A stretch of DNA of 64,000 bases from Anaerolineae bacterium (GTDB lineage: Bacteria; Chloroflexota; Anaerolineae; Anaerolineales; Anaerolineaceae), in assembly GCA_013178295.1 (NCBI GenBank), contig JABLWW010000015.1:1-64000 (forward strand), given 5' to 3'. The notes under the pieces are model-generated. The model saw only the letters and a program-made list of their open reading frames with translations, searched no databases and was not told the DNA's origin. Positions 17,838 through 29,223 of this stretch are shown here, piece after piece (the stretch's first letter is position 1; each line of letters opens with the position of its first letter). The position numbers and the translations under genes were made by a program.

Positions 17838-18059
17838 ATGAGAGCACATGTCCACGTCTTCTACAGCCAGGAAGATGGCGGCTACATCGCCGATATTCCT
17901 GATTTAAAACACTGTTCGGCATTTGGCAACACCCCCGAAGAAGCGCTGCATCAAGTCTTGCTGGCAAAACAGGCATGGCTTGATTCCGCCCGGGCAAATG
18001 GCAAACCCATCCCCGCGCCGCGCTACCGCCCGGTGATTTACCAGGTGGCAAGGACCTGA
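17838..18059 (+). CDS. HicB-family antitoxin-like protein
   Basis: 73 residues. HVHVFYSQEDGGYIADIPDL followed by FGNTPEEALHQVLLAKQAWL matches the HicB partial RNase-H-like fold (beta strands with G-Y-x-A-x-x-P-D, then a helix). Canonical HicB neutralises the HicA mRNA interferase and represses its own operon. No HicA-like gene is present on either side, so this copy is solitary. A TATAAT box lies at 17822-17827 and AAGG just before the ATG. Confidence 0.75.
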   Translation: MRAHVHVFYSQEDGGYIADIPDLKHCSAFGNTPEEALHQVLLAKQAWLDSARANGKPIPAPRYRPVIYQVART

Positions 18060-18065
18060 TCCAGG

Positions 18066-18150
18066 CACGTAGGATGCGCCTTGCCCCATCGGTTTTGGCT
18101 ACGCGCCCCCTCACACCTTTTAGGAGAGGGTCCGGGGGTGAGGTGCGCCC
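18066..18150. repeat. Dispersed GTAGGATGCGCCTTGCCCCATC repeat, copy identical to 12628
   Basis: 69 nt (18082-18150) are identical to 12628-12696. The element fills the gap between the convergent HicB-like gene and the last gene of the lysine cluster and may end transcription from both sides. Confidence 0.85.
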
Positions 18151-18160
18151 GCCGATCCCC

Positions 18161-19012
18161 TCAGCGCGCCCGCGCCGCCTGCAGCGCATATTCCACAATC
18201 ATCCCCGGAATATCCACCCCCGTCAGCGGAACGGTGGAGTGAAACTCCATGGTGTGGTTGACCTCGTTGATCAGATAACCGCGTTCGGGGTCTTCGAGCA
18301 CATCCACCGCAATCACCCCGCCGCCCACCGCCTGCGCCGCCGCCACGCTGATAGCATCCAGCTGCGGCGTCACCGGGCAGATGCTTGCCTTGCCGCCGCG
18401 GGCGGTGTTGGTGATCCAGTGCGCCGAACTGCGGTAGATGGCGCACACCGTGCGGTCGCCGATGACAAAGCTGCGGATATCGCGCCCGGGTTTGGAGATG
18501 TATTCCTGAATATAAAATACCGAATGCTGATACGACCCCAGCACCTCCTTGTGTTCAAGGATGGCTTCAGCGGCTTCGCGGTCGTTGACCTTTGCCAGCA
18601 GCCGCCCCCACGAACCGATCACCGGTTTGAGGATCAGCGGGTAGCCGATGCGGTCCATGATCTCCAGCGCCGCTTCGGGGGTAAAAGCCGTCCACACGCG
18701 CGGCTGCGGCACGCCCGCCCGCGCCAGCGCCTCAGAGGTCGCCAGCTTATCGCCGCACACTGCCGCCACCTGTGCCATGTTGACCGTAGGGATGCCCCAC
18801 GAATTGAGCACACGCGTGATATACAGCCCGTTCTTATAGCTCACACTGCGCTCGATGACGATGTCATACTGCCGCCAGCTGCCCGCATCGAGCACATCCA
18901 TCCACACCTCACGGTCGTCAATGCGGTCGTAGTCAATCCCGCGCCGCTCGAGCGCCTCAAAAATCCATTTCTCCTCCACCCGCACCCGCGAACACAACAC
19001 TGCAATCTTCAT
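18161..19012 (-). CDS. LysX/ArgX-type LysW-amino acid ligase (second copy)
   Basis: 283 residues, an ATP-grasp enzyme of the RimK/LysX family that joins an amino group acceptor to the C-terminal Glu of LysW. Landmarks are SRVRVEEKW at the N-terminus, [12 protein letters not shown] (ATP site), WITNTARGG and [10 protein letters not shown] at the metal/ATP end. It is very similar over its whole length to the product at 27287-28237, which lies next to lysW. The gene overlaps the dehydrogenase stop by 4 nt (ATGA) and has AGGAGG upstream. One copy may act on alpha-aminoadipate (lysine) and the other on glutamate (ornithine/arginine), as in archaea that have both LysX and ArgX. The shared NTARGG motif does not separate them. 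Confidence 0.88.
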
Positions 19013-20031
19013 ACCTGCATTCCTCCTGTCATCGCATTGGTTTCCAGCGCCGCCAGCACGCGCCGGGTGATGGCGGCAGTGGTATTCTCGCCCGGCGTTT
19101 GCAGGGCAAGCTGCACGGCAAGCTCGATGCGCCGCGCGGCATCTTCTTCTTTCCACACATAGCGCGCCAGCAGCGCCGCGCTCAGCATGGCTGCTGCCGG
19201 GTTGGCGATGCCGCGTCCGGCGATATCCGGCGCCGAACCGTGCACCGGCTCGGCAACGGCGCAGTCATCCCCCAGGTTAAGCGAAGGCGCCAGCCCCATC
19301 CCGCCGCACCAGCGCGCCGCCACATCCGAAAGGATATCGCCAAACAGATTAGTGGTCACCAGCACGGCAAAGCGCCCGGCGTCCACCGCCAGCTGATAGG
19401 CAGCGTTATCCACCAGCATCTCCTCCACCTCCACCGCCTGCCCGCCGCGGCGGGCTTCTTCGACCGCTTCCATCACCCCCTGGCGGAAGAGACCATCCGT
19501 CAGCGGCAGGATGTTGGCTTTGTGGACGATGGTCAGCCGCCCCGCGCCGCGCCGTGTCAGCATCTCCACCGCCCGCCGTCCAATGCGCCGCGAGGCAGCC
19601 AGCGTGATCACCCGCTCGGCAATTGCCGTATCGCCCTCGCGCCGCTCACGCCCGGCGTACAGCCCCTCGCTGTTCTCGCGCACGATGATCATATCCACCT
19701 GTGCGGCGGGCGGCTGGGCAAAGACACCGCGCACCGGGCGCAGGTTGGCGTAGAGATCAAGCTCCTGACGCAGGGTGAGGATGGCACTGCGATAGCCCTC
19801 CACCTTGCGCGCTGGAGAAGAAACCGCCCCAAACAGCGCCGCCCCGCAGGCGCGCACAGCTTCCAGCGTCTGCGGCGGGACGGAACCCCCCCGCCGCTGA
19901 AAACACTCCCAACCGGCTTCGGCAGAGACCACCTCCACCCCATCCAGCACGGCGCACAGCACCTCTACCGCGGGCGGGATGACCTCGCGCCCGATGCCGT
20001 CGCCTTCGATGACGCACACCTGACGCCGCAT
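19009..20031 (-). CDS. hicdh: Homoisocitrate dehydrogenase (isocitrate/isopropylmalate dehydrogenase family)
   Basis: 340 residues of the beta-decarboxylating dehydrogenase family. The N-terminus is [20 protein letters not shown]. The substrate loop includes [12 protein letters not shown], the catalytic Lys lies in [13 protein letters not shown], and the metal site in NLFGDILSD; the cofactor end reads [12 protein letters not shown]. In this setting it should oxidise homoisocitrate to 2-oxoadipate using NAD+. Isopropylmalate or isocitrate activity cannot be excluded from sequence. It starts 1 nt after the small aconitase subunit stop, so translation is coupled. Confidence 0.87.
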
Positions 20032-20032
20032 C

Positions 20033-20539
20033 TCACCCCTCCTCGCCCGGAAAGCGCCCATAACGGCGCACGTATGGCACAATCCCGCCCGCCTGCAAAA
20101 TCTGGCGTGCAAACTCGGGCAGCTGCGGCAGGGCAAACACCCCGCCCGTTCCCGAAAGCCGCTCCAGCGTGCCGCCCGCCACGTCCAGCCGCACCGCGTC
20201 GCCGTCCTCCAGGGCGTGCACGATCTCGGGCGATTCATACAGCGGAATCCCCAGATTGAGGGCGTTGCGGTAAAAGATGCGCGCAAACCCCAGGGCGATG
20301 ATCGCCCCTACCTGGCGGCGGCGCAGGGCTTCGACGGCATACTCGCGCGAAGACCCGCAGCCAAAGTTGTGCAGGGCAATAATCACGTCGCCCGGCTGTG
20401 CCGTTTTGGCAAATTCGGGGCGCGCTTCGATAAACGCCGCCTCGCCCACATCCGCATCCGGGCGCATATAGGGGGCATAGCGTCCCGGCACAATCTGGTC
20501 GGTATCCACATCTGATCCAAATTTCCACACTCTTGCCAT
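20033..20539 (-). CDS. lysU: Homoaconitase small subunit (LysU-type)
   Basis: 168 residues, the swivel domain of the aconitase family. GSDVDTDQIVPGRY opens the protein and FGCGSSREYAVEAL is the substrate-binding signature. With the large subunit it should convert homocitrate to homoisocitrate through cis-homoaconitate. Isopropylmalate isomerase is the close alternative, and the context of homocitrate synthase and LysW genes favours homoaconitase. AAGGAGC precedes the ATG at 20539. Confidence 0.87.
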   Translation of the reverse strand: MARVWKFGSDVDTDQIVPGRYAPYMRPDADVGEAAFIEARPEFAKTAQPGDVIIALHNFGCGSSREYAVEALRRRQVGAIIALGFARIFYRNALNLGIPLYESPEIVHALEDGDAVRLDVAGGTLERLSGTGGVFALPQLPEFARQILQAGGIVPYVRRYGRFPGEEG

Positions 20540-20564
20540 GTTTTTGCTCCTTGTCAAACCAGTT

Positions 20565-21794
20565 TTACAGACTGCGCGGGTCGGTGATGACACCGGTCAG
20601 CGCCGAAGCCGCCGCCACCGCCGGAGAAGCCAGATAGATGTGCGAGGTCGGGTCGCCCATGCGCCCGCGGAAGTTGCGGTTGGCGGTGGAAAGACACACC
20701 TCGCCCTCGCCCAGCGTCCCCTGATGACGTCCCATGCACATCCCACAGCCGGGGGTAGTCAGCGCCGCCCCCGCCTCCAGCAGGGTTTGCAGCGTGCCGT
20801 CCGCCGCGGCTTGCGCCAGCACACGGCTGGAAGCCGGGGTGACGATGAGGCGCACACCCGCAGCCACACGCCGCCCGCGCAGCAGCGCCGCGGCGGTTTG
20901 CAGGTCGCTCAGCCGTCCGTTGGTGCAGGTGCCCAAAAAGACCACATCCACCTTTGTGCCAGCCGCTGCGTCCACGTCCACCACACGGTCAACGGCATGC
21001 GGCAGCGCCACCTGCGGCTGCAGGTCTGCCAGGTCAACCTCCAGGCGGCGGGCATAGCGCGCCCCCTCCTCCACCTTCAGCCAGTGCGGGACGGCATACT
21101 GCCGCGGCAGACCGTCAGGCGGGACGATGCCCGCTTTGGCGCCCAGCTCGACCGCCATACTCGCCAGCGTCTGCCTGCCGCCCAGCTCCAGCCACTCCAG
21201 CCCGTGATACTCGATGGTCATGTAATTGGCGCCGGAGATGGTCAGCAGCCTGCCCAGCTTGAGCGCCAGGTCTTTGGCATCGGTAAAGGGCGGAAAGCGC
21301 CCTGTAATGTCTACACGCAGGGTTTCGGGCACCCGCAGCCACGTCCGCCCGGTCGCCCATGCCAGGGCAACATCCGTCGAACCCATCCCCGTGCCAAACG
21401 CCCCCACCGCCCCATAGCTGGTGGAATGCGAATCGGCGCCGATCACAATCTGCCCCGGCTGGGCAATCCCCTCCTCCACCAGCACCTGATGGCAGATGCC
21501 GCACCCGCCCTCAAACAGACGGATGCCCTGCTCGGCGGCAAAACGGCGCACCGTCTTTTGGGCGTTGGCTGTCCCCACCGTCGCCGCAGGTACCACGTGG
21601 TCAAAAACAAACACCAGCTGCTGCGGGTTGTGCACCCGTTCCTTTCCCAGCTCAGAACGTAGAATCTGAATAATGCTCGGGGTGAGCGAATCGTGGCTCA
21701 TCACCACATGCGGCGCAACCACCACAAAATCGCCCGCCTGCACCGCCCGCCCGGCGGCTTGCGAAAGGATCTGCTCGGATAAAGTCCGTCCCAT
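20565..21794 (-). CDS. lysT: Homoaconitase large subunit (LysT-type)
   Basis: 409 residues, the length of LysT/LeuC-type prokaryotic large subunits. The [4Fe-4S] cysteines are in FLGTCTNGR and TTPGCGMCMG. GADSHSTSYGAVGAFGTGMG is the substrate loop. It catalyses homocitrate/homoisocitrate isomerisation with LysU, encoded 25 nt downstream. AGGAGG lies before the ATG. The homocitrate synthase stop is 9 nt upstream. Confidence 0.9.
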   Translation of the reverse strand: MGRTLSEQILSQAAGRAVQAGDFVVVAPHVVMSHDSLTPSIIQILRSELGKERVHNPQQLVFVFDHVVPAATVGTANAQKTVRRFAAEQGIRLFEGGCGICHQVLVEEGIAQPGQIVIGADSHSTSYGAVGAFGTGMGSTDVALAWATGRTWLRVPETLRVDITGRFPPFTDAKDLALKLGRLLTISGANYMTIEYHGLEWLELGGRQTLASMAVELGAKAGIVPPDGLPRQYAVPHWLKVEEGARYARRLEVDLADLQPQVALPHAVDRVVDVDAAAGTKVDVVFLGTCTNGRLSDLQTAAALLRGRRVAAGVRLIVTPASSRVLAQAAADGTLQTLLEAGAALTTPGCGMCMGRHQGTLGEGEVCLSTANRNFRGRMGDPTSHIYLASPAVAAASALTGVITDPRSL

Positions 21795-21803
21795 AGCCGC
21801 CTC

Positions 21804-22973
21804 CTATGCTCCCCCGCTGGGTTCGGGTGTCTTTTCCTCTTCCAGCAGCGCCTCGTGCATCGTATACAGCAGGCGGTCCACCTCGTCCAGCGTCAGCGGC
21901 TGATGATCCGACAGCCGTTTGACCTCCTCGGTGATGGCTTTGAGATGCGCATCGCTCAGCTTCAGCCCCAACTGCTCGGCGCGGTAGCGCACCGCGTTCC
22001 ACCCCGTCAGACGGCTGGCGATGTGGATGTAGCGCGTCAGCCCAAAATCCTCCGGTTTGAGAATCTCATAGGTCGAGGGGTTGTTGAGCACGGCTTTGGC
22101 ATGGATGCCCGCCTTGTGGGTGAAAGCGGCAAAACCGGTAATGTAGTTGTTGAAGGGAATATCCACCCCCACCAGGCTGGCGATCGCCTGGTCAAGGTGG
22201 CGCAGCAGCGGCAGGTTGTATTTGGCAACCAGCGCCGGGCTGACGGCATACAGGCGCGCAATCAGCCCGCCCAGCGGGGTAATGCCGTTGCGCTCGCCGA
22301 TGCCCAGCACGCTGGTATCCACATGCGTGGCGCCCGCTTCCAGGGCGGCAAAGGCATTGGCGATGGCACAGCCGGTGTCGTTGTGCCCGTGAAACTCAAT
22401 ATCCGCCTTGACCCGCGCCCGCAGGTTTGCCACCAGGTCATAAATCTGGCGCGGCGTGCCGATGCCCACCGTATCGGCAACGCCCACACGGTGCACGCCC
22501 ATTTTATCCACCGCCTCATAGACGCGGTAGAGGTCTTCCACGTTGCTGCGCAGGCTGTCCTCGGTGCTAAAGCGCATCTCGACGTTGAACTTTTTGAGAT
22601 ATTCAAACACCTCGCCCGCCATCTCGACAATGGCTTCGATGCTCTTGCCGTGGCTGAACTTGCGCAGGTACGAGGACGTGCCGATGACCACATCCACGCC
22701 CTGCACACCGGTCTCCACCGCCACACGCACATCCTCCAGCGCACAGCGGGTGTGGGTCAGCGTTTTGGCGCGCAGCCCCAGCCGCGCAATCGCCCGGCAG
22801 TCCTTCTCGCTCTGCGGTGATGCCAGCGGCGTGGTCAGCTCGATATACTCCACGCCAAAGGCATCCAGCAGGGTGGCGATGCGGATTTTCTGCTCGGTGG
22901 TGAAGAAGGCATTGACAAACTGCTCTCCCTCACGCAGGGTTGAATCAATAATGGCAAATTGCTGGACACTCAT
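21804..22973 (-). CDS. hcs: Homocitrate synthase
   Basis: 389 residues of the DRE-TIM superfamily. The N-terminal [12 protein letters not shown] contains the metal/2-oxoacid motif, and the barrel ends with [16 protein letters not shown] and the [17 protein letters not shown] stretch. It condenses acetyl-CoA and 2-oxoglutarate, the committed step of the alpha-aminoadipate route. 2-Isopropylmalate synthase is unlikely because the protein is short and lacks the LeuA C-terminal regulatory domain. The start has AAGGAG upstream. The gene lies directly behind a lysine-rich leader ORF and terminator (23011-23162), so it is the regulated entry of the downstream half of the cluster. Confidence 0.9.
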
Positions 22974-23010
22974 GCTGTTTTCTCCTTTTTTATCTATCAA
23001 CAAATCCTCC

Positions 23011-23050
23011 AAAAAAAATCGGGCTTACCGTTTTTCTCTGGTAAGCCCGA
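23011..23050 (-). terminator. Attenuator terminator upstream of homocitrate synthase
   Basis: On the minus strand TCGGGCTTACC (23050-23040) and GGTAAGCCCGA (23029-23019) form a perfect 11-bp stem with a 10-nt loop, followed by eight T residues (23018-23011). The homocitrate synthase ribosome site and ATG follow 38 nt later, with lysK upstream, so it sits inside the operon. Confidence 0.93.
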
Positions 23051-23096
23051 CTGGGTAACAAGTGGTTGCGTCTCACTCGAAAACGCGGCTTACCAG
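23038..23096 (-). promoter_or_regulatory. Antiterminator pairing of the lysine attenuator
   Basis: CTGGTAAGCC (minus strand, 23096-23087), within codons 23-26 of the leader ORF, is a 10-nt perfect partner of GGCTTACCAG (23047-23038), which contains most of the terminator 5' arm. The two pairings cannot coexist. A ribosome stalled on the Lys codons leaves the first segment free; a ribosome at the stop codon (23075-23073) would cover part of it. Confidence 0.8.
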
Positions 23097-23162
23097 ATTT
23101 GCATCCGGCTTCTTCTCCTTCTTGCTTTTCTTCAGCGCTTCAAACGCGGTGTTGTACGGCAT
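23073..23162 (-). CDS. Lysine-rich leader peptide controlling homocitrate synthase transcription
   Basis: 29 residues, translated from the minus strand. Codons 11-18 read Lys-Lys-Ser-Lys-Lys-Glu-Lys-Lys (AAG AAA AGC AAG AAG GAG AAG AAG): six lysines in eight positions. The ATG lies 3 nt after the lysK stop, and a GGAG about 10 nt upstream could load ribosomes. The ORF is followed by the antiterminator/terminator pair described at 23011-23096. This is the textbook layout of ribosome-mediated attenuation by charged tRNA-Lys. Leader-peptide attenuation of the lysine cluster is known in Thermus thermophilus. The peptide itself probably has no function. That it is translated is inferred. Confidence 0.85.
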   Translation of the reverse strand: MPYNTAFEALKKSKKEKKPDANLVSRVFE

Positions 23163-23165
23163 GGG

Positions 23166-24212
23166 CTAGGTCTCCGTCAGCTGCGTCAGCGCCTGCGCCA
23201 GCACGGCAATACAGGCTTTGTATTCCGAAATCAGCACGTGCTCGTGCGGGGTGTGGTCGAGGTTGGAATCGCCTGGGCCGTAGGCAACCGCCGGGCATTT
23301 CCACACCGGCGCCACCAGGTTCATATCGGATGTGCCCGTTTTGAACGAAAAACACGGGATGCCGCCCTGGGCACGCACACCCGCCAGCAGAGCGCGCACC
23401 AGCGGGGTGTTTTTGCTGTCGTTCCACGCCGGAACGCCCTCTTCAAACTGAAAGCTCCCCCCGTTGGAAAGGTTACGGACAAACTCCTGCGCCTCAGACG
23501 GGGGCAGGTCTTGCGGCAGCCGCAGGCTGATGCGCAGACGGGCGGTCTCGTACAGCCCGTCATCCTCGCTGAACATGCCGCGCAGAGAGGGGTTGAGATG
23601 GGTGAAGAGCTTTTTGCGCCCCTTGTTGTAATCATCGGCGGCTTTGCTCAAGCGCATCCAAAAATCCACAGCCTGCTCGCAGGCGCTTGCCTGTTGGGAA
23701 GCGGTATGCGCCAGCGGCTGACGCACCGTATACTCAAACCACATCCCGCCCTTATACCCCAGCGTGACGCGGTCCCAGCCGCTGGGTTCGCCAATGATCA
23801 CCATCTGCGGGGGGGTGTGGGTTTGCAGCAGGTGTTTTGCCCCGCGCGAATCGCCCTCCTCGCCCACTGCACCGACCACCGTCAGCCGCCAGCCGCGGCG
23901 CGCCCCCGCCTGTGCCGCCGCGGCGGCAAAGCACGCCAGGGCGCCTTTGGCGTCCACCGCCCCGCGCCCGTGCAGCACATCGCCGCTGCGCCGCACCGGG
24001 ATTTGCCCAGGCACGGTGTCAATGTGCCCCAGCAGCAGAATTTCGCGCTCGCCGTCGCCCAGCATTCCCACAGCGTTGCCCACCTCATCCATATAGGCAG
24101 AAAATCCCCACTCTTCCATCACCTGCACCAAAAACGCAGCTGCCTCCGCTTCGGCACCGGTTGGGCTGTAGCGCTCAACCAAACCCGTCAGCAGCGTTTC
24201 TTCGTTATACAT
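23166..24212 (-). CDS. lysK: LysW-lysine/ornithine carboxypeptidase (LysK, M20 family)
   Basis: 348 residues. It is an ArgE/DapE-like M20 metallopeptidase: the metal site [12 protein letters not shown], then [12 protein letters not shown] and [10 protein letters not shown]. In the LysW pathway it frees lysine (or ornithine) from the carrier in the last step. GGAGGG precedes the ATG, 3 nt after the lysJ stop region. Its stop codon is followed after 3 nt by the lysine-rich leader ORF, so the end of lysK doubles as the entry to the attenuator. Confidence 0.9.
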
Positions 24213-24215
24213 GTC

Positions 24216-25403
24216 TTATTCACCCTCCGCCGTGGAAATCGGCGCCGCCAGGACGCTCTGCACCGATTCTACCACTTTCTGCAAATCCTGCTGTGCAATC
24301 ACCAGCGGGGGCAGAAAACGCATCACCGTCATTCCGGCTGGCAGCGCCAGCACGCCGTGCGCCATCAGCGCCTGCAGATAGGGGGCGGCTTTGCAGCGCA
24401 GTTCCACCCCCACCATCAGCCCCAGCCCGCGCACCTCGCGCACCAAAGGCGAGTCAATCTCCGCCAAACGGGCGCGGAACCACCCGCCCAGCTCCTCCGC
24501 CCGCTGTGGCAAATGCTCGTCCTCAAGCACATCCAGCGCCGCCAGCGCAGCGGCGCACGCCAGCGGATTGCCGCCAAAGGTCGAGCCGTGCACATGCCCG
24601 GGCAGTTTGCCCAGTTCGGCACGCAGCAGCGCGGCGCCCATCGGCAGCCCTCCGGCAATGGATTTTGCCACACACAGCAGGTCGGGCTGGATAGCATAAT
24701 GTTCAAAGGCAAACATCTTCCCCGTGCGCCCAAAGCCGGTCTGCACCTCATCCAGGATCAACAGCGCCCCATGCTGACGGCAGACCTTCTGCGCCGTGTG
24801 CAGAAACTCGGCATCGGCTGGGTTGACCCCGCCCTCGCCCTGCACCGCCTCCAGAATCACCGCCGCCGTCTCGGCGCTGACCGCCTCCTGCAGTGCGGAT
24901 GGGTCGTTATAGGGCACATGCCGCACCCCCGGCAGCAGCGGCTCAAACGGGGCGCGGTATTTCTTCTCCCAGGTTGCCGAAAGCGCCCCAAACGTACGCC
25001 CGTGAAAGCCGCGCATGGCGGCAATGATCTCCTTGCGCCCGGTAATCAGACGGGCAAACTTGAAGGCTGCTTCCACCGCCTCGGTGCCGGAGTTGCACAA
25101 AAAGACCCTCCCCATCCCGGTCACAAGGCACAGCCGCCGCTCCAATTCCGCCCGCCGGTCGTTGTAAAAAATCTCCGGACAGGTAATCAGCTGGCGGGCT
25201 TGCTCGGCAACCGCCTGCGCCACGCGCGGGTGGGCATGCCCCACATTCGCCGCGCCGTGCCCGCCCACACAGTCAATATATTCATTGCCGTCGGCGTCCC
25301 ACAGTTTGGCGCCGCTGCCGCGCACAATGACCACATCGCGTTTGGTATACACCCCGCTGGTGTAGTTCTGCTCCATTTCCTGTATCGCCGCGCTTGCGCT
25401 CAT
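24216..25403 (-). CDS. lysJ: LysW-aminoadipate semialdehyde/acetylornithine-type aminotransferase (LysJ)
   Basis: 395 residues of the class III PLP aminotransferases (ArgD/LysJ). CNSGTEAVEAAFKFAR binds the PLP phosphate region, ILDEVQTGFGRTG contains the PLP-ring Asp and VAKSIAGGLPMGA the Schiff-base Lys. It aminates the LysW-linked semialdehyde to LysW-lysine using glutamate. Its place between lysK and lysZ supports LysJ over ArgD. AAAGGAGCGG precedes the ATG. Confidence 0.92.
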   Translation of the reverse strand: MSASAAIQEMEQNYTSGVYTKRDVVIVRGSGAKLWDADGNEYIDCVGGHGAANVGHAHPRVAQAVAEQARQLITCPEIFYNDRRAELERRLCLVTGMGRVFLCNSGTEAVEAAFKFARLITGRKEIIAAMRGFHGRTFGALSATWEKKYRAPFEPLLPGVRHVPYNDPSALQEAVSAETAAVILEAVQGEGGVNPADAEFLHTAQKVCRQHGALLILDEVQTGFGRTGKMFAFEHYAIQPDLLCVAKSIAGGLPMGAALLRAELGKLPGHVHGSTFGGNPLACAAALAALDVLEDEHLPQRAEELGGWFRARLAEIDSPLVREVRGLGLMVGVELRCKAAPYLQALMAHGVLALPAGMTVMRFLPPLVIAQQDLQKVVESVQSVLAAPISTAEGE

Positions 25404-25421
25404 CTCTCCGCTCCTTTGCCC

Positions 25422-26225
25422 TCAGGCAATCACCGTGCCCCTGCCCGCCATGGCGGCTTGCAGCGGATGCTCGATGCGTCCGTCGGCAAAAATCACCTGC
25501 TGTACGCCCAAATCGAGCGCCTCGCAGGCACCCAGCACCTTTTTCTTCATGCGCCCCTCGGCAAACGAGAGCGCCTGTTCCAGCCCGGTTTTGGGCAGAC
25601 GGTCAATCAGCGTGCTCTCGTCGGGAAAACTGCGCATCAGCCCGGGGACATTGGTGAGGATGATCAACTGCTGTGCCCCCGCCGCCCCCGCCACCATCGC
25701 CGCGGCGCGGTCGGCATCCACGTTGAGCGCCTCCCCGGAGGGCGAAATTGCCAGCGGCGCAATCACCGGCGTCAGCCCCGCCGAAAGCAGCAAGCTGATC
25801 AGCAGACTGTTGACCTGTTCGATTTTGCCAGTGTAGTCGTCGCGCAGCATCATCTGCCGCCCGTTTTCCACCACACGGATGGCATCCTTACGGCGCGCCA
25901 TCATCAGCCGCCCGTCCAGCCCCGAAAGCCCGCAGGCGTTCACCCCCGCCTTTTGCAGACGCTCCACCAGCAGGGTGTTGATCTTGCCGTTGGTCACCAT
26001 GGCAAAGATTTCCAGCGTCTGACGGTCGGTGTAGCGGCTGGTGTAGCCCGAAGTGGAAGTAACAAAGCGCGGCGGGTGACCCAGCCGTGTCGAAATCTCG
26101 TTGGTTTCGGCCGAACCGCCGTGTACCACAATCAGCTGCTGCCCGCTGGCAACCAGTTGGGCGGCATCGGCGCAGATGGCATCCAGGTTGACCCCCTGCG
26201 CGCCGCCAATTTTGACCACAATCAT
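25422..26225 (-). CDS. lysZ: LysW-aminoadipate kinase (LysZ, amino acid kinase family)
   Basis: 267 residues, ArgB-like. IVVKIGGAQG is the N-terminal ATP/substrate loop, VHGGSAETNEIS the substrate-binding motif and LNVDADRAAAMVAGAAGA the nucleotide-binding part. It phosphorylates the gamma- or delta-carboxylate of the amino acid attached to LysW. GAGGAG lies upstream of the ATG. The stop of lysY is 33 nt upstream. Confidence 0.92.
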   Translation of the reverse strand: MIVVKIGGAQGVNLDAICADAAQLVASGQQLIVVHGGSAETNEISTRLGHPPRFVTSTSGYTSRYTDRQTLEIFAMVTNGKINTLLVERLQKAGVNACGLSGLDGRLMMARRKDAIRVVENGRQMMLRDDYTGKIEQVNSLLISLLLSAGLTPVIAPLAISPSGEALNVDADRAAAMVAGAAGAQQLIILTNVPGLMRSFPDESTLIDRLPKTGLEQALSFAEGRMKKKVLGACEALDLGVQQVIFADGRIEHPLQAAMAGRGTVIA

Positions 26226-26258
26226 CTTGCTTTCTCCTCTGATTCCTCGATGTCAATC

Positions 26259-27290
26259 TTAAATGGGGTGCAGACCGCCAAAGGTCAGCCCGGCGCTCTC
26301 TTCCCAGCCGCACATCACGTTCATGCACTGCACCGCCGAACCGGCCGCCCCTTTCATCAGGTTGTCAATGGCGGCCAGGCTCACCACCCGCCCGCTGGCA
26401 GGGTCGAGGTCAAAGCCTACATCCACGTAGTTGCTCCCCGCCAGAATCTTGGCTTCGGGCACACGGTAGATACCGCGTTTATCCTTGACCAGACGCACAA
26501 ACGGCTCTTCCTCCGCCCAGGCGCGGTAGGCGCGCCACAGGTCTTTTTCGCTCACGCCCGCTTTGACAAAGACATGCGCCGCCGCCAGCGCCCCGCGCAC
26601 CACATCCACCGAGGTCATGGTCAGATGCACATCCTCCAGCCCCAGCTCCTGGATCACCTCGGCTGTGTGGCGGTGTCCATAGGCGGAAAAGGTGCGGATG
26701 ACGCCACTGCGCTCGGGGTGGTGCGATCCGGGATTGGGCGAGGCGCCGCCCTCCGACGATCCGACCTTGATATCCACAATCACCGCCCGGCTGCGGTCGA
26801 GCAGGTCATTTTTGACCAGCGGCAACAGGGCAAGGATGGAGGCGGTGGCGTTGCACCCCACCCCGCTGATGTAGTTTGCCGTGCGCATCTCGGCGCGGTG
26901 CAGTTCGGGCAGCCCGTAGACAAACTTCTCCAGCCAGTGCGGGGCAGCGTGGGGTTCGCCATAGTACTGCTGATACAGGGCGGCATCGCGCAGACGAAAA
27001 TCGCCCGCCAGGTCAATCAGACGCGGTGCCAAAGAGGCATAGTGGTCAATGTGCTTTTGGCTTTCGCCGTGCGGCAGCGCCAAAAAGAGCACATCGCAGG
27101 CTTCCAGCTGCGTGCGCGAGGTGAATTTCATTTGTGTGCGTTTGCGTAAATTGGGGTGCTGCTGATAGACATACTCGCCGAGATGGCTTTCGGAGGTCGC
27201 CTGAGCCACCTCCACGTGGGGATGTTCGAGCAGCAGGCGCAGCAGCTCGCCGCCCGCATACCCCGAGGCGCCGACAATGGAAACTCTCAT
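26259..27290 (-). CDS. lysY: LysW-aminoadipate-6-phosphate reductase (LysY, ArgC family)
   Basis: 343 residues. The NADP-binding start is [18 protein letters not shown] and the catalytic Cys lies in [36 protein letters not shown] is the family loop. It reduces the LysW-linked acyl phosphate to the semialdehyde. The ATG at 27290 overlaps the lysX stop by 4 nt (ATGA), a sign of coupled translation; a longer upstream frame belongs to the overlap with lysX. Confidence 0.92.
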
Positions 27291-28237
27291 AGCGCCCCCG
27301 CCAGCACGCCCGGTTTCCACATCTGCCCGCCGCAGGGGGTGATAGCCGCCGCCCGCACCCGCCCGGCGCCCGGCAGGTTGACGCGCGTCCTGCCCTCTGC
27401 CACCGCCAGCGCATATTCGACGATCACGCCAGCGATGTCCACACCGGTTACCGGCGCCAGAGTGTGAAATTCCATGGTGTGGTTGATTTCGTTGACCAGA
27501 TAGCCGCGCTGCGGGTCTTCCAGCACGTCCACCGCCAGCACACCACCGCCCACCGCCTGGGCAGCCGCCACACACAAGTCATTGAGTTCGGCGCTCACCG
27601 CACATACCTCGCCCTGTCCGCCGCGGGCGGTGTTGGTGATCCAATGCGAGGCGTTGCGGTAAATGGCACACACCGTCTGATCGCCCACCACCATAGCGCG
27701 GATATCGCGTCCGGGCTTTTGGATGAACTCTTGAATGTAGAAAATGGAATGCTGGTACGAGCCAAGTGTCTCCTTGTGCTCCAAAATGGCTTCAGCGGCG
27801 TCGCGGTCGTTGATTTTGGCAAGCAGACGCCCCCACGAACCGACCACCGGTTTGAGCACCACCGGATAGCCCAGCTCTTCAATGGCTTCCAGCGCCGCCT
27901 CGGCAGTAAAGGCAACCTTGATGCGCGGCTGGGGAATGCCCGCCCGCGTCAGCGCGGCTGAGGTTGCCAGCTTATCGCCGCAGGTCATGGCAACCTGCGC
28001 CATGTTGACCGTGGGGATGCCCCAGGCGTTGAGCATCTGACAGGCATACAGCCCGCGCGAAAACGACAGACTGCGCTCCAGCACCACATCCAGCCCGCAC
28101 CACGGCTGCGGGTCGTTGAGGTCAAAATGGGCGCTGCTGTCGTCAATCCGCTCATAGGGCACACCCTTCTGCTCCAGGCTGGCAAGCAGCCACTTCTCTT
28201 CCACACGCACACGCGAAAGCAAAATACCGACCTTCAT
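27287..28237 (-). CDS. lysX: LysW-aminoadipate ligase LysX, with C-terminal extension
   Basis: 316 residues. ATP-grasp ligase with [34 protein letters not shown] and [10 protein letters not shown]. It attaches alpha-aminoadipate (or glutamate) to the C-terminal Glu of LysW, protecting the amino group. It lies 20 nt after lysW. Compared with the second copy at 18161 it carries about 32 extra residues after EYALAVAEG ([12 protein letters not shown]...). That tail overlaps lysY by only 4 nt, so it is encoded by DNA of its own. AAGGAGCG precedes the ATG. Confidence 0.92.
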
Positions 28238-28257
28238 AGAACGCTCCTTGACCGGGT

Positions 28258-28431
28258 TTATTCGCCCCAGTCTTCTTCTTCCATCGGCGCCAGCTCCACC
28301 GTCAACGGGTCGAGGCTGGTAACCTCCAAGTCCACGCCGCAATCCGGGCAGACGACAATTTCCCCGACGACAACCCCGCTCAATTGCAGGGCGGCTTCAC
28401 ATTCGGGACAGGTGGGTTGATGATTGGACAT
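28258..28431 (-). CDS. lysW: Amino-group carrier protein LysW
   Basis: 57 residues, read directly from the minus strand. Two zinc-knuckle pairs are present, CPEC (residues 8-11) and CPDC (28-31). The acidic C-terminus ends MEEEDWGE, the EDWGE tail whose last Glu carries the substrate on its gamma-carboxyl group. All intermediates from aminoadipate to lysine (or glutamate to ornithine) travel on this protein. A GGAGG ribosome site lies 6 nt before the ATG. It heads the operon behind a strong promoter and a leader with a terminator. Confidence 0.96.
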
Positions 28432-28445
28432 GACGATACCTCCGT

Positions 28446-28480
28446 AAAAAATTAGAGCCTTCCGGTACTCGGAAGGCTCT
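28446..28480 (-). terminator. Terminator hairpin in the lysW leader
   Basis: On the minus strand AGAGCCTTCC and GGAAGGCTCT form a perfect 10-bp stem with a 7-nt loop, then AATTTTTT. It stands between the lysW promoter and the lysW ribosome site, so it can only act as an attenuator of this operon. Confidence 0.9.
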
Positions 28481-28521
28481 TTTGGTTTGCCTGGGATAAA
28501 ACCGCTTACGCTTGTTCTCTC

Positions 28522-28611
28522 CTAAACGCCAAACGCCCACTTTCCCGGAAAGTGGAGGGATGTGGCTGGCTTTCGCTTAGGGCTGATGAACAAAGCAGTG
28601 TGCGCTAACAT
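28522..28611 (-). CDS. Candidate leader peptide with Lys-Arg-Lys run, upstream of lysW
   Basis: 29 residues. The ATG falls 10 nt after the TATAAT box, so the transcript would be leaderless or nearly so. Codons 12-14 are AAG CGA AAG (Lys-Arg-Lys) and codon 24 is another Lys. CCTAAGCG (28581-28574), overlapping those codons, can pair with CGTTTAGG (28528-28521) around the stop codon. A further hairpin (CCACTTTC-CGG-GAAAGTGG) lies between. The attenuator terminator follows. The layout resembles the clearer leader at 23073. The Lys/Arg signal is weaker, and it could respond to either amino acid or be chance. Confidence 0.55.
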   Translation of the reverse strand: MLAHTALFISPKRKPATSLHFPGKWAFGV

Positions 28612-28621
28612 ATTGACATTC

Positions 28622-28649
28622 ATTATACTGATGGGGTGATATTTGTCAA
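28622..28649 (-). promoter_or_regulatory. Promoter of the lysine cluster
   Basis: TTGACA (28649-28644) and TATAAT (28627-28622) are both perfect sigma70 boxes, separated by 16 nt. The start is expected near 28614-28616. It is one of the strongest promoters in the window and should drive lysW to lysK and, when the internal attenuator reads through, the genes down to 18161. Confidence 0.9.
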
Positions 28650-28709
28650 GGGATTTGGGCAAGATTTTTGCCCTGATAACCAGATGTTAACATTGGCATC
28701 CTAGCAGTG

Positions 28710-28819
28710 CCGCACGTAGAGCGGGGTTCACCCCGCCAAACATCACCCAGGGCGTAGGCTGGGGTTCACCCCAGCATCCGATGGGGCAAGTGATGGGGCA
28801 AGCCCCATCCTACATGTAG
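28710..28819. repeat. Dispersed palindrome cluster upstream of the lysine promoter
   Basis: Contains GCGGGGTTCACCCCGCC, GGCTGGGGTTCACCCCAGC and GATGGGGCAAGCCCCATCCTAC, the same modules as at 4231 and 50545. Confidence 0.8.
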
Positions 28820-28851
28820 GTAATAACAATCATTTTTTTTATTAAGAACCA

Positions 28852-28879
28852 CGTAGGCAAATACAATCGTATGCCTACG
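28852..28879. repeat. Short inverted repeat
   Basis: CGTAGGCA (28852-28859) and TGCCTACG (28872-28879) are separated by 12 nt, in an AT-richer stretch with no clear gene. Confidence 0.4.
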
Positions 28880-28965
28880 AGCATCAATGCTAGTGTCAAT
28901 ATCTGTGTCATGCGGAGCTAAACATACACGATAGCAGTGATACAAGCCCACAACAAGAAACACAT

Positions 28966-29223
28966 CTAAACACTTACATCAATGGAAGTATGTTTAGGCA
29001 ACACAATCTGAGAAGTAGAAAGCACGACCAACAGCACACACCCAACATTGAGAAGCACCACATCAGAAGCAGAATAGCCAAACATAGAGCAAACAGCCTC
29101 AATGTCAACAGGCAAGCCGTCAAACACAGCCACCGCAGAACGATGGAGTTGAGGGTCATCAAAGCAAAAAACCACAGCACGAGGAACAGCCACACCAAAA
29201 TTATATATACCCCAGCGCTCCAT
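28966..29223 (-). CDS. Hypothetical small protein, possible degenerate HTH
   Basis: 85 residues if started at MERWGIYNFG. The region is AT-richer than its surroundings and the encoded peptide has a natural-looking composition. VDIEAVCSMFGYSASDVV has a helix-turn-helix-like pattern that resembles, weakly, the LuxR-type gene at 29993. No ribosome site was found and no family was recognised. It may be a decayed gene or chance. Confidence 0.3.
   Translation of the reverse strand: MERWGIYNFGVAVPRAVVFCFDDPQLHRSAVAVFDGLPVDIEAVCSMFGYSASDVVLLNVGCVLLVVLSTSQIVLPKHTSIDVSV

Follow-up and report, generated by a model that had tools for sequence, protein, structure and literature searches.

A probable ribosome-mediated attenuator with lysine control codons inside a lysine operon of an Anaerolineae bacterium

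A lysine-codon leader and alternative hairpins between lysK and hcs

The window, the whole 64,000-nucleotide stretch of DNA that was analysed, carries on its minus strand a lysine gene cluster in the order lysW, lysX, an argC-family gene (lysY), lysZ, a lysJ-like gene, lysK and hcs, followed 3' of hcs by the homoaconitase subunits, a homoisocitrate-dehydrogenase-like gene and a second lysX-like gene (Table 1). This last gene (19012-18161, minus strand), 3' of the homoisocitrate-dehydrogenase-like gene, is 67% identical to the first lysX. A scan of the minus strand from 18000 to 29000 listed a single sigma-70-like site, located before lysW. Since this was the only site listed, the leader and hairpins between lysK and hcs are most likely part of one long operon that starts before lysW.

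Table 1. Positions of genes, leaders and RNA elements in the window
Feature	Position	Strand	Remarks
hcs, homocitrate synthase	21804..22973	-	TIGR02146 above cut-off; first gene after terminator; ATG at 22973 inferred
U-tract, eight T	23011..23018	-	directly after terminator 3' arm
Region 4, GGTAAGCCCGA	23019..23029	-	terminator 3' arm
Region 3, TCGGGCTTACCAGA	23037..23050	-	terminator 5' arm and loop start
Leader peptide ORF MPYNTAFEALKKSKKEKKPDANLVSRVFE, 29 codons and stop	23073..23162	-	ATG 23162, stop 23075-23073; similar ORFs in relatives
Region 2, ATCTGGTAAGCC	23087..23098	-	alternative partners: region 1 or region 3
Region 1, CCGGAT, codons Pro19-Asp20	23103..23108	-	partner of region 2
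Lys control codons KKSKKEKK	23109..23132	-	six Lys in eight codons (codons 11-18)
lysK, [LysW]-lysine hydrolase	23166..24212	-	NF003367 above cut-off; precedes leader; stop 23168-23166
lysW, carrier protein	28258..28431	-	TIGR01206 above cut-off
Terminator before lysW	28454..28480	-	read from upstream region
Second leader ORF, MLAHTALFISPKRKPATSLHFPGKWAFGV, mixed Lys and Arg codons (KRK), before lysW	28522..28611	-	read from upstream region
Promoter TTGACA-16-TATAAT	28622..28649	-	sole sigma-70-like site listed by scan, minus strand, 18000-29000

The original prediction placed a lysine-rich ORF of 29 codons directly after lysK, and its coordinates and codons were as claimed, with Lys at codons 11, 12, 14, 15, 17 and 18. 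The 11-bp terminator with eight U that it placed before hcs was also found, with arms at 23050-23040 and 23029-23019. Folded alone, this terminator reaches -20.6 kcal/mol (z -4.8), and none of 200 shuffles was as stable. The competing antiterminator had been given as 10 bp; the competition stands, and the helix comprises 11 perfect pairs (23097-23087 with 23047-23037), one more than claimed. A further pairing, absent from that prediction, joins codons 19-20 to region 2: CCGGAT (23108-23103) pairs with ATCTGG (23098-23093), the first half of region 2. This pairing gives the hcs leader a complete trp-type set of alternative hairpins, 1:2, 2:3 and 3:4, and the minimum-energy fold of the leader segment contains 1:2 plus 3:4.

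Of the 1,234 short ORFs (8-70 aa, the longest for each stop) that the two strands of the window contain, the hcs leader alone has at least five Lys in eight codons. When the upstream segment was shuffled by mononucleotide 20,000 times, a perfect complement of at least 10 to the terminator 5' arm and loop arose in 5.

We examined the effect of ribosome position with a folding model that assumes a reach of 16 nt from the P site. In the window, 2:3 competed with 3:4 at equilibrium only when the P site was at codons 15-17 (0.19, 0.41 and 0.44), which corresponds to Glu-16, Lys-17 or Lys-18 in the A site; at other positions 2:3 did not exceed 0.01. In 34 of 39 elements, ribosome position brought the terminator probability under 0.95. 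For 23 of these 34 the optimum placed Lys in the A site, compared with a mean of 38.5% Lys codons, and for 11 it lay elsewhere. At locus L002 the position effect shrank without the U-tract (terminator minimum 0.92). When the RNA ended after region 3, 2:3 prevailed in the model even without a ribosome (0.96), and termination would therefore need either prior formation of 1:2 or a ribosome over region 2.

From these features we infer a mechanism in which transcripts from the promoter before lysW would run past lysK, with a ribosome translating the small ORF. When charged tRNA-Lys is scarce, this ribosome would stall with Lys-17 or Lys-18 in the A site and cover region 1, leaving region 2 free to pair with region 3. 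Formation of 2:3 would block terminator 3:4, and hcs and the downstream genes would be transcribed. When lysine is plentiful, the ribosome would advance over region 2, or would depart and allow 1:2 to re-form; with region 2 occupied, 3:4 would form and transcription in vivo would end at the U-tract.

Conservation and covariation among relatives

The search for hcs homologs drew on four overlapping genome sets: 61 relatives, 147 members of the family, 400 of the order and 396 of the class. From these we took 140 hcs upstream regions, a part of all hcs matches (60 loci returned with the searches and 80 more that were fetched), and scored a region as Lys-rich if, within 650 nt of hcs, it held a short ORF in which eight codons included at least four Lys. 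Such an ORF was present in 45 of the 140 regions. Dinucleotide shuffling, done 20 times, gave a mean of 4.05 and a maximum of 7, and the reverse strand gave 5. The remaining 95 regions had no Lys-rich ORF within 650 nt, and 7 of these carry the element farther upstream, before lysX. A chance origin of the hcs leader was rejected on this excess, the rarity of the complement in shuffles and the uniqueness of the ORF in the window. Arg-rich ORFs were found in 76 of the 140 regions (shuffle mean 65.0, maximum 75); since they too are slightly above shuffles, an Arg-rich ORF alone says little in this GC-rich DNA.

In relatives Pro-Asp often follows the Lys tract, and the Pro-Asp codons are region 1. 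A script placed a terminator after 45 of 49 Lys-rich ORFs, with four of the 45 mis-parsed. The Lys-rich ORF and complementary arms that the original prediction expected in close relatives are there: 19 of the 22 hcs loci searched from the family and order (L003-L013 and L151-L161) match a covariance model of the element, R1, which was built partly from these 22 loci and leaves eight of them (L006, L008, L010, L011, L154, L155, L157 and L158) outside the model. R1 had no match at L012, L013 or L161. Loci L162-L169, read by ORF outside the R1 search, have no Lys-rich ORF within 650 nt.

At L005 and L153 the control codons form the in-frame C-terminal tail of lysK, so that the sensor would be ribosomes engaged in translating an enzyme gene. 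Promoter-like sequences, read by eye, lie directly 5' of the leader at L007 and L010. Loci with two putative attenuators in tandem before one lysine gene include L009, L010, L160, L334 and L335.

For covariation we aligned 37 elements out of the 49 Lys-rich ORFs (alignment A1), leaving out 4 without a scripted terminator, 4 mis-parsed, 2 second ORFs, the near-duplicate L208 and L010. The combined 1:2 and 3:4 structure was paired in 87.1% of cells, compared with 71.4% in shuffles and 30-49% in slid versions, the tested columns being taken from alignment members and so biased in their favour relative to the slid versions. It showed 104 double-sided changes compared with 33.3 in shuffles. Covariation was strong in the terminator, where 9 of 11 pairs changed on both sides; the 1:2 hairpin was paired in 82.9% of cells, with both sides changed in 2 of 6 pairs.

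The antiterminator duplex of 45 elements averaged -19.5 kcal/mol with cognate arms and -15.8 kcal/mol with permuted arms, and 0 of 10,000 permutations was as good. When the set was thinned to 21, 12 and 9 representatives, 0, 7 and 1 of 20,000 were. By column, 2:3 was paired in 92.7% of cells among ten near relatives, equalled in 84 of 500 shuffles, and in 77.1% among the 37 sequences compared with 72.3% in shuffles (0 of 500 as high). In these 37 sequences double-sided changes in 2:3 showed no excess over shuffles (261 of 500), and many cells outside a CUGG:CCAG core were unpaired. The antiterminator is supported mainly by energy, with weak column covariation of 2:3. Related sequences are non-independent in all of these counts, whether for or against an attenuator.

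Control codons and the downstream pathway

At E<=0.01, R1, which includes sequences from some of the genomes searched, matched at least 142 of the 396 class genomes sampled, and the core CCGGAC, GTCTGG and CCAGAC is shared across many of them. We read 106 matches in context at 87 loci, which were chosen rather than random: 80 of 84 matches (three duplicates and one reverse-strand match were dropped) and 26 of 34 (two reverse-strand matches, five whose E exceeded 0.03 and the window, which was already included as L288, were dropped). The first recognised gene was LysW in 42, HCS in 34, LysX in 10, HCS2 in 2, ArgC in 9, ArgG in 3 and none in 6; pooled, 88 elements precede lysW, hcs or lysX and 12 precede argC or argG. 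Two elements were present at 19 of the 87 loci. One of the six elements lacking a recognised lysine or arginine gene (L324 216-324, genome G440) reads RRKLAKKPD and lies before carA-carB. Searching 63 of 119 loci that share a 14-base motif, itself too common, gave one weak R1 match (L141, 27.1 bits, E 0.014).

The control codons follow the downstream gene. Over the ten codons that precede region 1, Lys was more frequent than Arg in 54 of 62 elements upstream of lysine genes and in none of the 12 upstream of arginine genes (Fisher p 6e-9, relatedness ignored), six of the 80 matches having no assigned gene. The eight exceptions include L305, whose true frame reads KKSKK and was miscounted in the script frame, and L313-L315, which are truly mixed (KRSKVYPR). 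Among the matches listed, the twelve arginine cases span six families (f50, f30, f41, f37, f27 and f67), and several genomes (G650, G574, G659 and G557) hold both a Lys copy and an Arg copy.

In the window's genome R1 found the hcs element alone (E 1.1e-11; next match E 9.5). The lysW gene is preceded by the strong promoter, leader and terminator given in Table 1, with a weak antiterminator of -9.8 kcal/mol, and mixed Lys/Arg lysW leaders occur in six relatives (KRAR, KRK, KKRSSK, KKRSEK, KKR and KRR), one of which gave a weak R1 match (L355, 27.7 bits, E 0.004). Before argG (L363, G000:C15) lie a promoter, an Arg-rich leader MNRNQLRRGRRNSFPVSLWVAASDMH, a terminator and a competing duplex of -16.0 kcal/mol. 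The genome has three such leaders: Arg-only (argG), Lys and Arg (lysW) and Lys-only (hcs).

At another locus of this genome (L365, G000:C2), a cimA/leuA-like gene, which from its sequence we take to be cimA-like, is preceded by a promoter-like TTGACA, by an ORF in which six of eight codons are Ile (IIFGIIII), and by a GC-rich hairpin and T-run. This Ile-rich leader and terminator are a possible Ile attenuator. Among ten leuA-like genes examined, none in the window's genome has a Leu-rich leader; Leu-rich ORFs precede those of three relatives.

The mixed codons before lysW led us to consider the enzymes of both pathways. In the window's genome, which is 97.8% complete, a single argC-type and a single argB-type gene exceed the cut-offs, and both lie in the lysine cluster; weaker second matches fall below the cut-offs. 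With these single genes, the lysW half may serve both the lysine and the arginine pathways. The single argB/argC-type set is accompanied by argG, as in a bifunctional LysW pathway of the Sulfolobus/Thermococcus type. The LysW pathway of Sulfolobus makes both ornithine and lysine, according to the available text of PMC10433800. A lysW half that makes both would be expected to have Lys as well as Arg codons ahead of lysW, with Lys codons alone ahead of hcs. Counting against a shared pathway, we identified no ArgX-like ligase among the two LysX-like genes of the window's cluster: both carry NHT, and neither looks like ArgX. We took the Asn and Thr of NHT to be the LysX-type residues named in that part of PMC10433800.

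We predicted before the search that genomes with a mixed Lys/Arg lysW leader would have one argC-type gene and those with a pure-Lys leader two. One gene above cut-off was found in 10 of 10 mixed-leader genomes, or 9 of 9 new cases because G000 was known beforehand; in G106 a second match fell below cut-off. Two genes were found in 10 of 12 pure-Lys genomes as first classed, the exceptions being G763 (one gene; its leader holds an Arg codon) and G598 (one gene; 82% complete). In further predictions G607 had the one gene predicted, G745 had none where one was predicted, and G598 and G783 had one each where two were predicted. Against the idea, G444, G524 and G540 combine two argC-type genes with a leader that contains an Arg codon. 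Beyond the predicted genomes, G569 (SKRKQVKK) has one gene and G447 (pure Lys) two; G650, G574, G659, G557 and G450 have two, G454 one and a cut-off piece, and G668 one. For a last group we have gene counts alone: one in G735, G718, G723, G595 and G764, two in G620, G690, G756 and G509, and none in G636.

Interpretation and relation to known systems

The original prediction read the segment as leader-peptide attenuation. Terminator covariation, the advantage of cognate over swapped arms and codons that follow the pathway all support this, and we consider it very likely that the lysK-hcs segment is a transcription attenuator of the ribosome-mediated (trp/his) type within a lysine operon.

The basic peptide might instead arrest the ribosome itself, through charge in the exit tunnel or a KKP context, with the switch reading ribosome speed or a factor like EF-P rather than tRNA-Lys charging. 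The tract is indeed strongly basic and often ends in K-P, and Lys and Arg, the two amino acids of this RNA family, are both basic. However, Lys and Arg segregate by downstream pathway, the Pro-Asp codons are better explained by 1:2 pairing, and the window's genome has an Ile-rich leader with a terminator before the cimA-like gene. In the Salmonella speF leader, changing two Arg codons to Lys abolished arginine regulation (PMC6386406, in the text available). We regard arrest by the peptide as improbable. Still less probable is an ordinary intergenic terminator whose partial read-through fixes the ratio of the lysK half to the hcs half, with the ORF a passive by-product. The hcs terminator is strong, and terminators also precede lysW and argG, but across many genera the terminator is accompanied by the ORF, its codons and region 2, and the codons differ according to the pathway; this explanation was rejected on the latter and on the covariation of 1:2 plus 3:4. 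Least credible is a leader that binds a metabolite or tRNA (lysine riboswitch or T-box) or a protein, with a chance ORF: lysine genes in other phyla are often controlled by riboswitches or T-boxes, but alternative hairpins and codons are what is conserved here, and a riboswitch or T-box was rejected because neither the window nor nine loci, of which eight belong to other genomes carrying the element, gave an Rfam match at gathering score.

T-boxes read tRNA directly, one RNA scaffold being retuned by codon change. Scaffold retuning is alike in the hcs-type element, where, in contrast, a ribosome must translate the codons. The lysine genes of Thermus thermophilus, which use the same pathway as the hcs element, are reportedly controlled by leader-peptide attenuation. 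We did not find this in the open-access literature searched, PMC3356886 included.

Like the trp, his, leu and thr attenuators of the E. coli type, as presented in the available part of PMC9413887, the hcs element has a leader ORF, clustered control codons, alternative hairpins and a terminator before a structural gene. Unlike these, it uses Lys or Arg codons, lies mid-operon about 5.3 kb after the start of the first gene, is doubled at 19 of 87 loci and has an RNA core common to many genomes of one class. Consecutive Arg codons in orf34 of the Salmonella speF leader sense arginine via ribosome pausing; unlike the hcs element, orf34 acts via RNase G decay, Rho and the ribosome-binding site on a polyamine gene, and its authors found no intrinsic terminator (PMC6386406, in the text available). 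Cognate codons also precede amino-acid genes in two uORF attenuators identified by genome comparison, the hisZ/hisS* uORFs of bacilli (PMC2965389) and the cysS uORFC-8-2 of Rhodobacterales (PMC8632094), in both cases for other amino acids and phyla, and the available parts of these two papers do not describe codon switching between pathways. Rfam at the time of PMC3766115 held attenuator motifs only for his, leu, thr and trp, in the portion of that paper available, and we found no attenuator family such as this one in Rfam 15 or the open-access literature searched. The kind of attenuator is known, as are Arg-codon leaders as such (speF); the family, its codon switching and the mixed Lys/Arg leader appear to be new.

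A broader reading, to which we give about even credence, is that one attenuator scaffold has spread through the class and been retuned by its control codons, with codons for both amino acids where the enzyme set is shared. The window's genome would then have three tiers, Arg-only for argG, Lys and Arg for the shared lysW half and Lys-only for hcs, and the lysK tail would serve as leader peptide in two relatives.

These results would bring a large class that has been studied little within the range of amino-acid attenuation, and would extend such attenuation to a single RNA family that uses Lys and Arg codons. Gating of the lysine-specific half only is a possible reason for a switch in mid-operon. 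The Lys/Arg leaders would constitute a natural experiment in control-codon reprogramming, and may help sequence-based prediction of the LysW pathways that make lysine as well as arginine.
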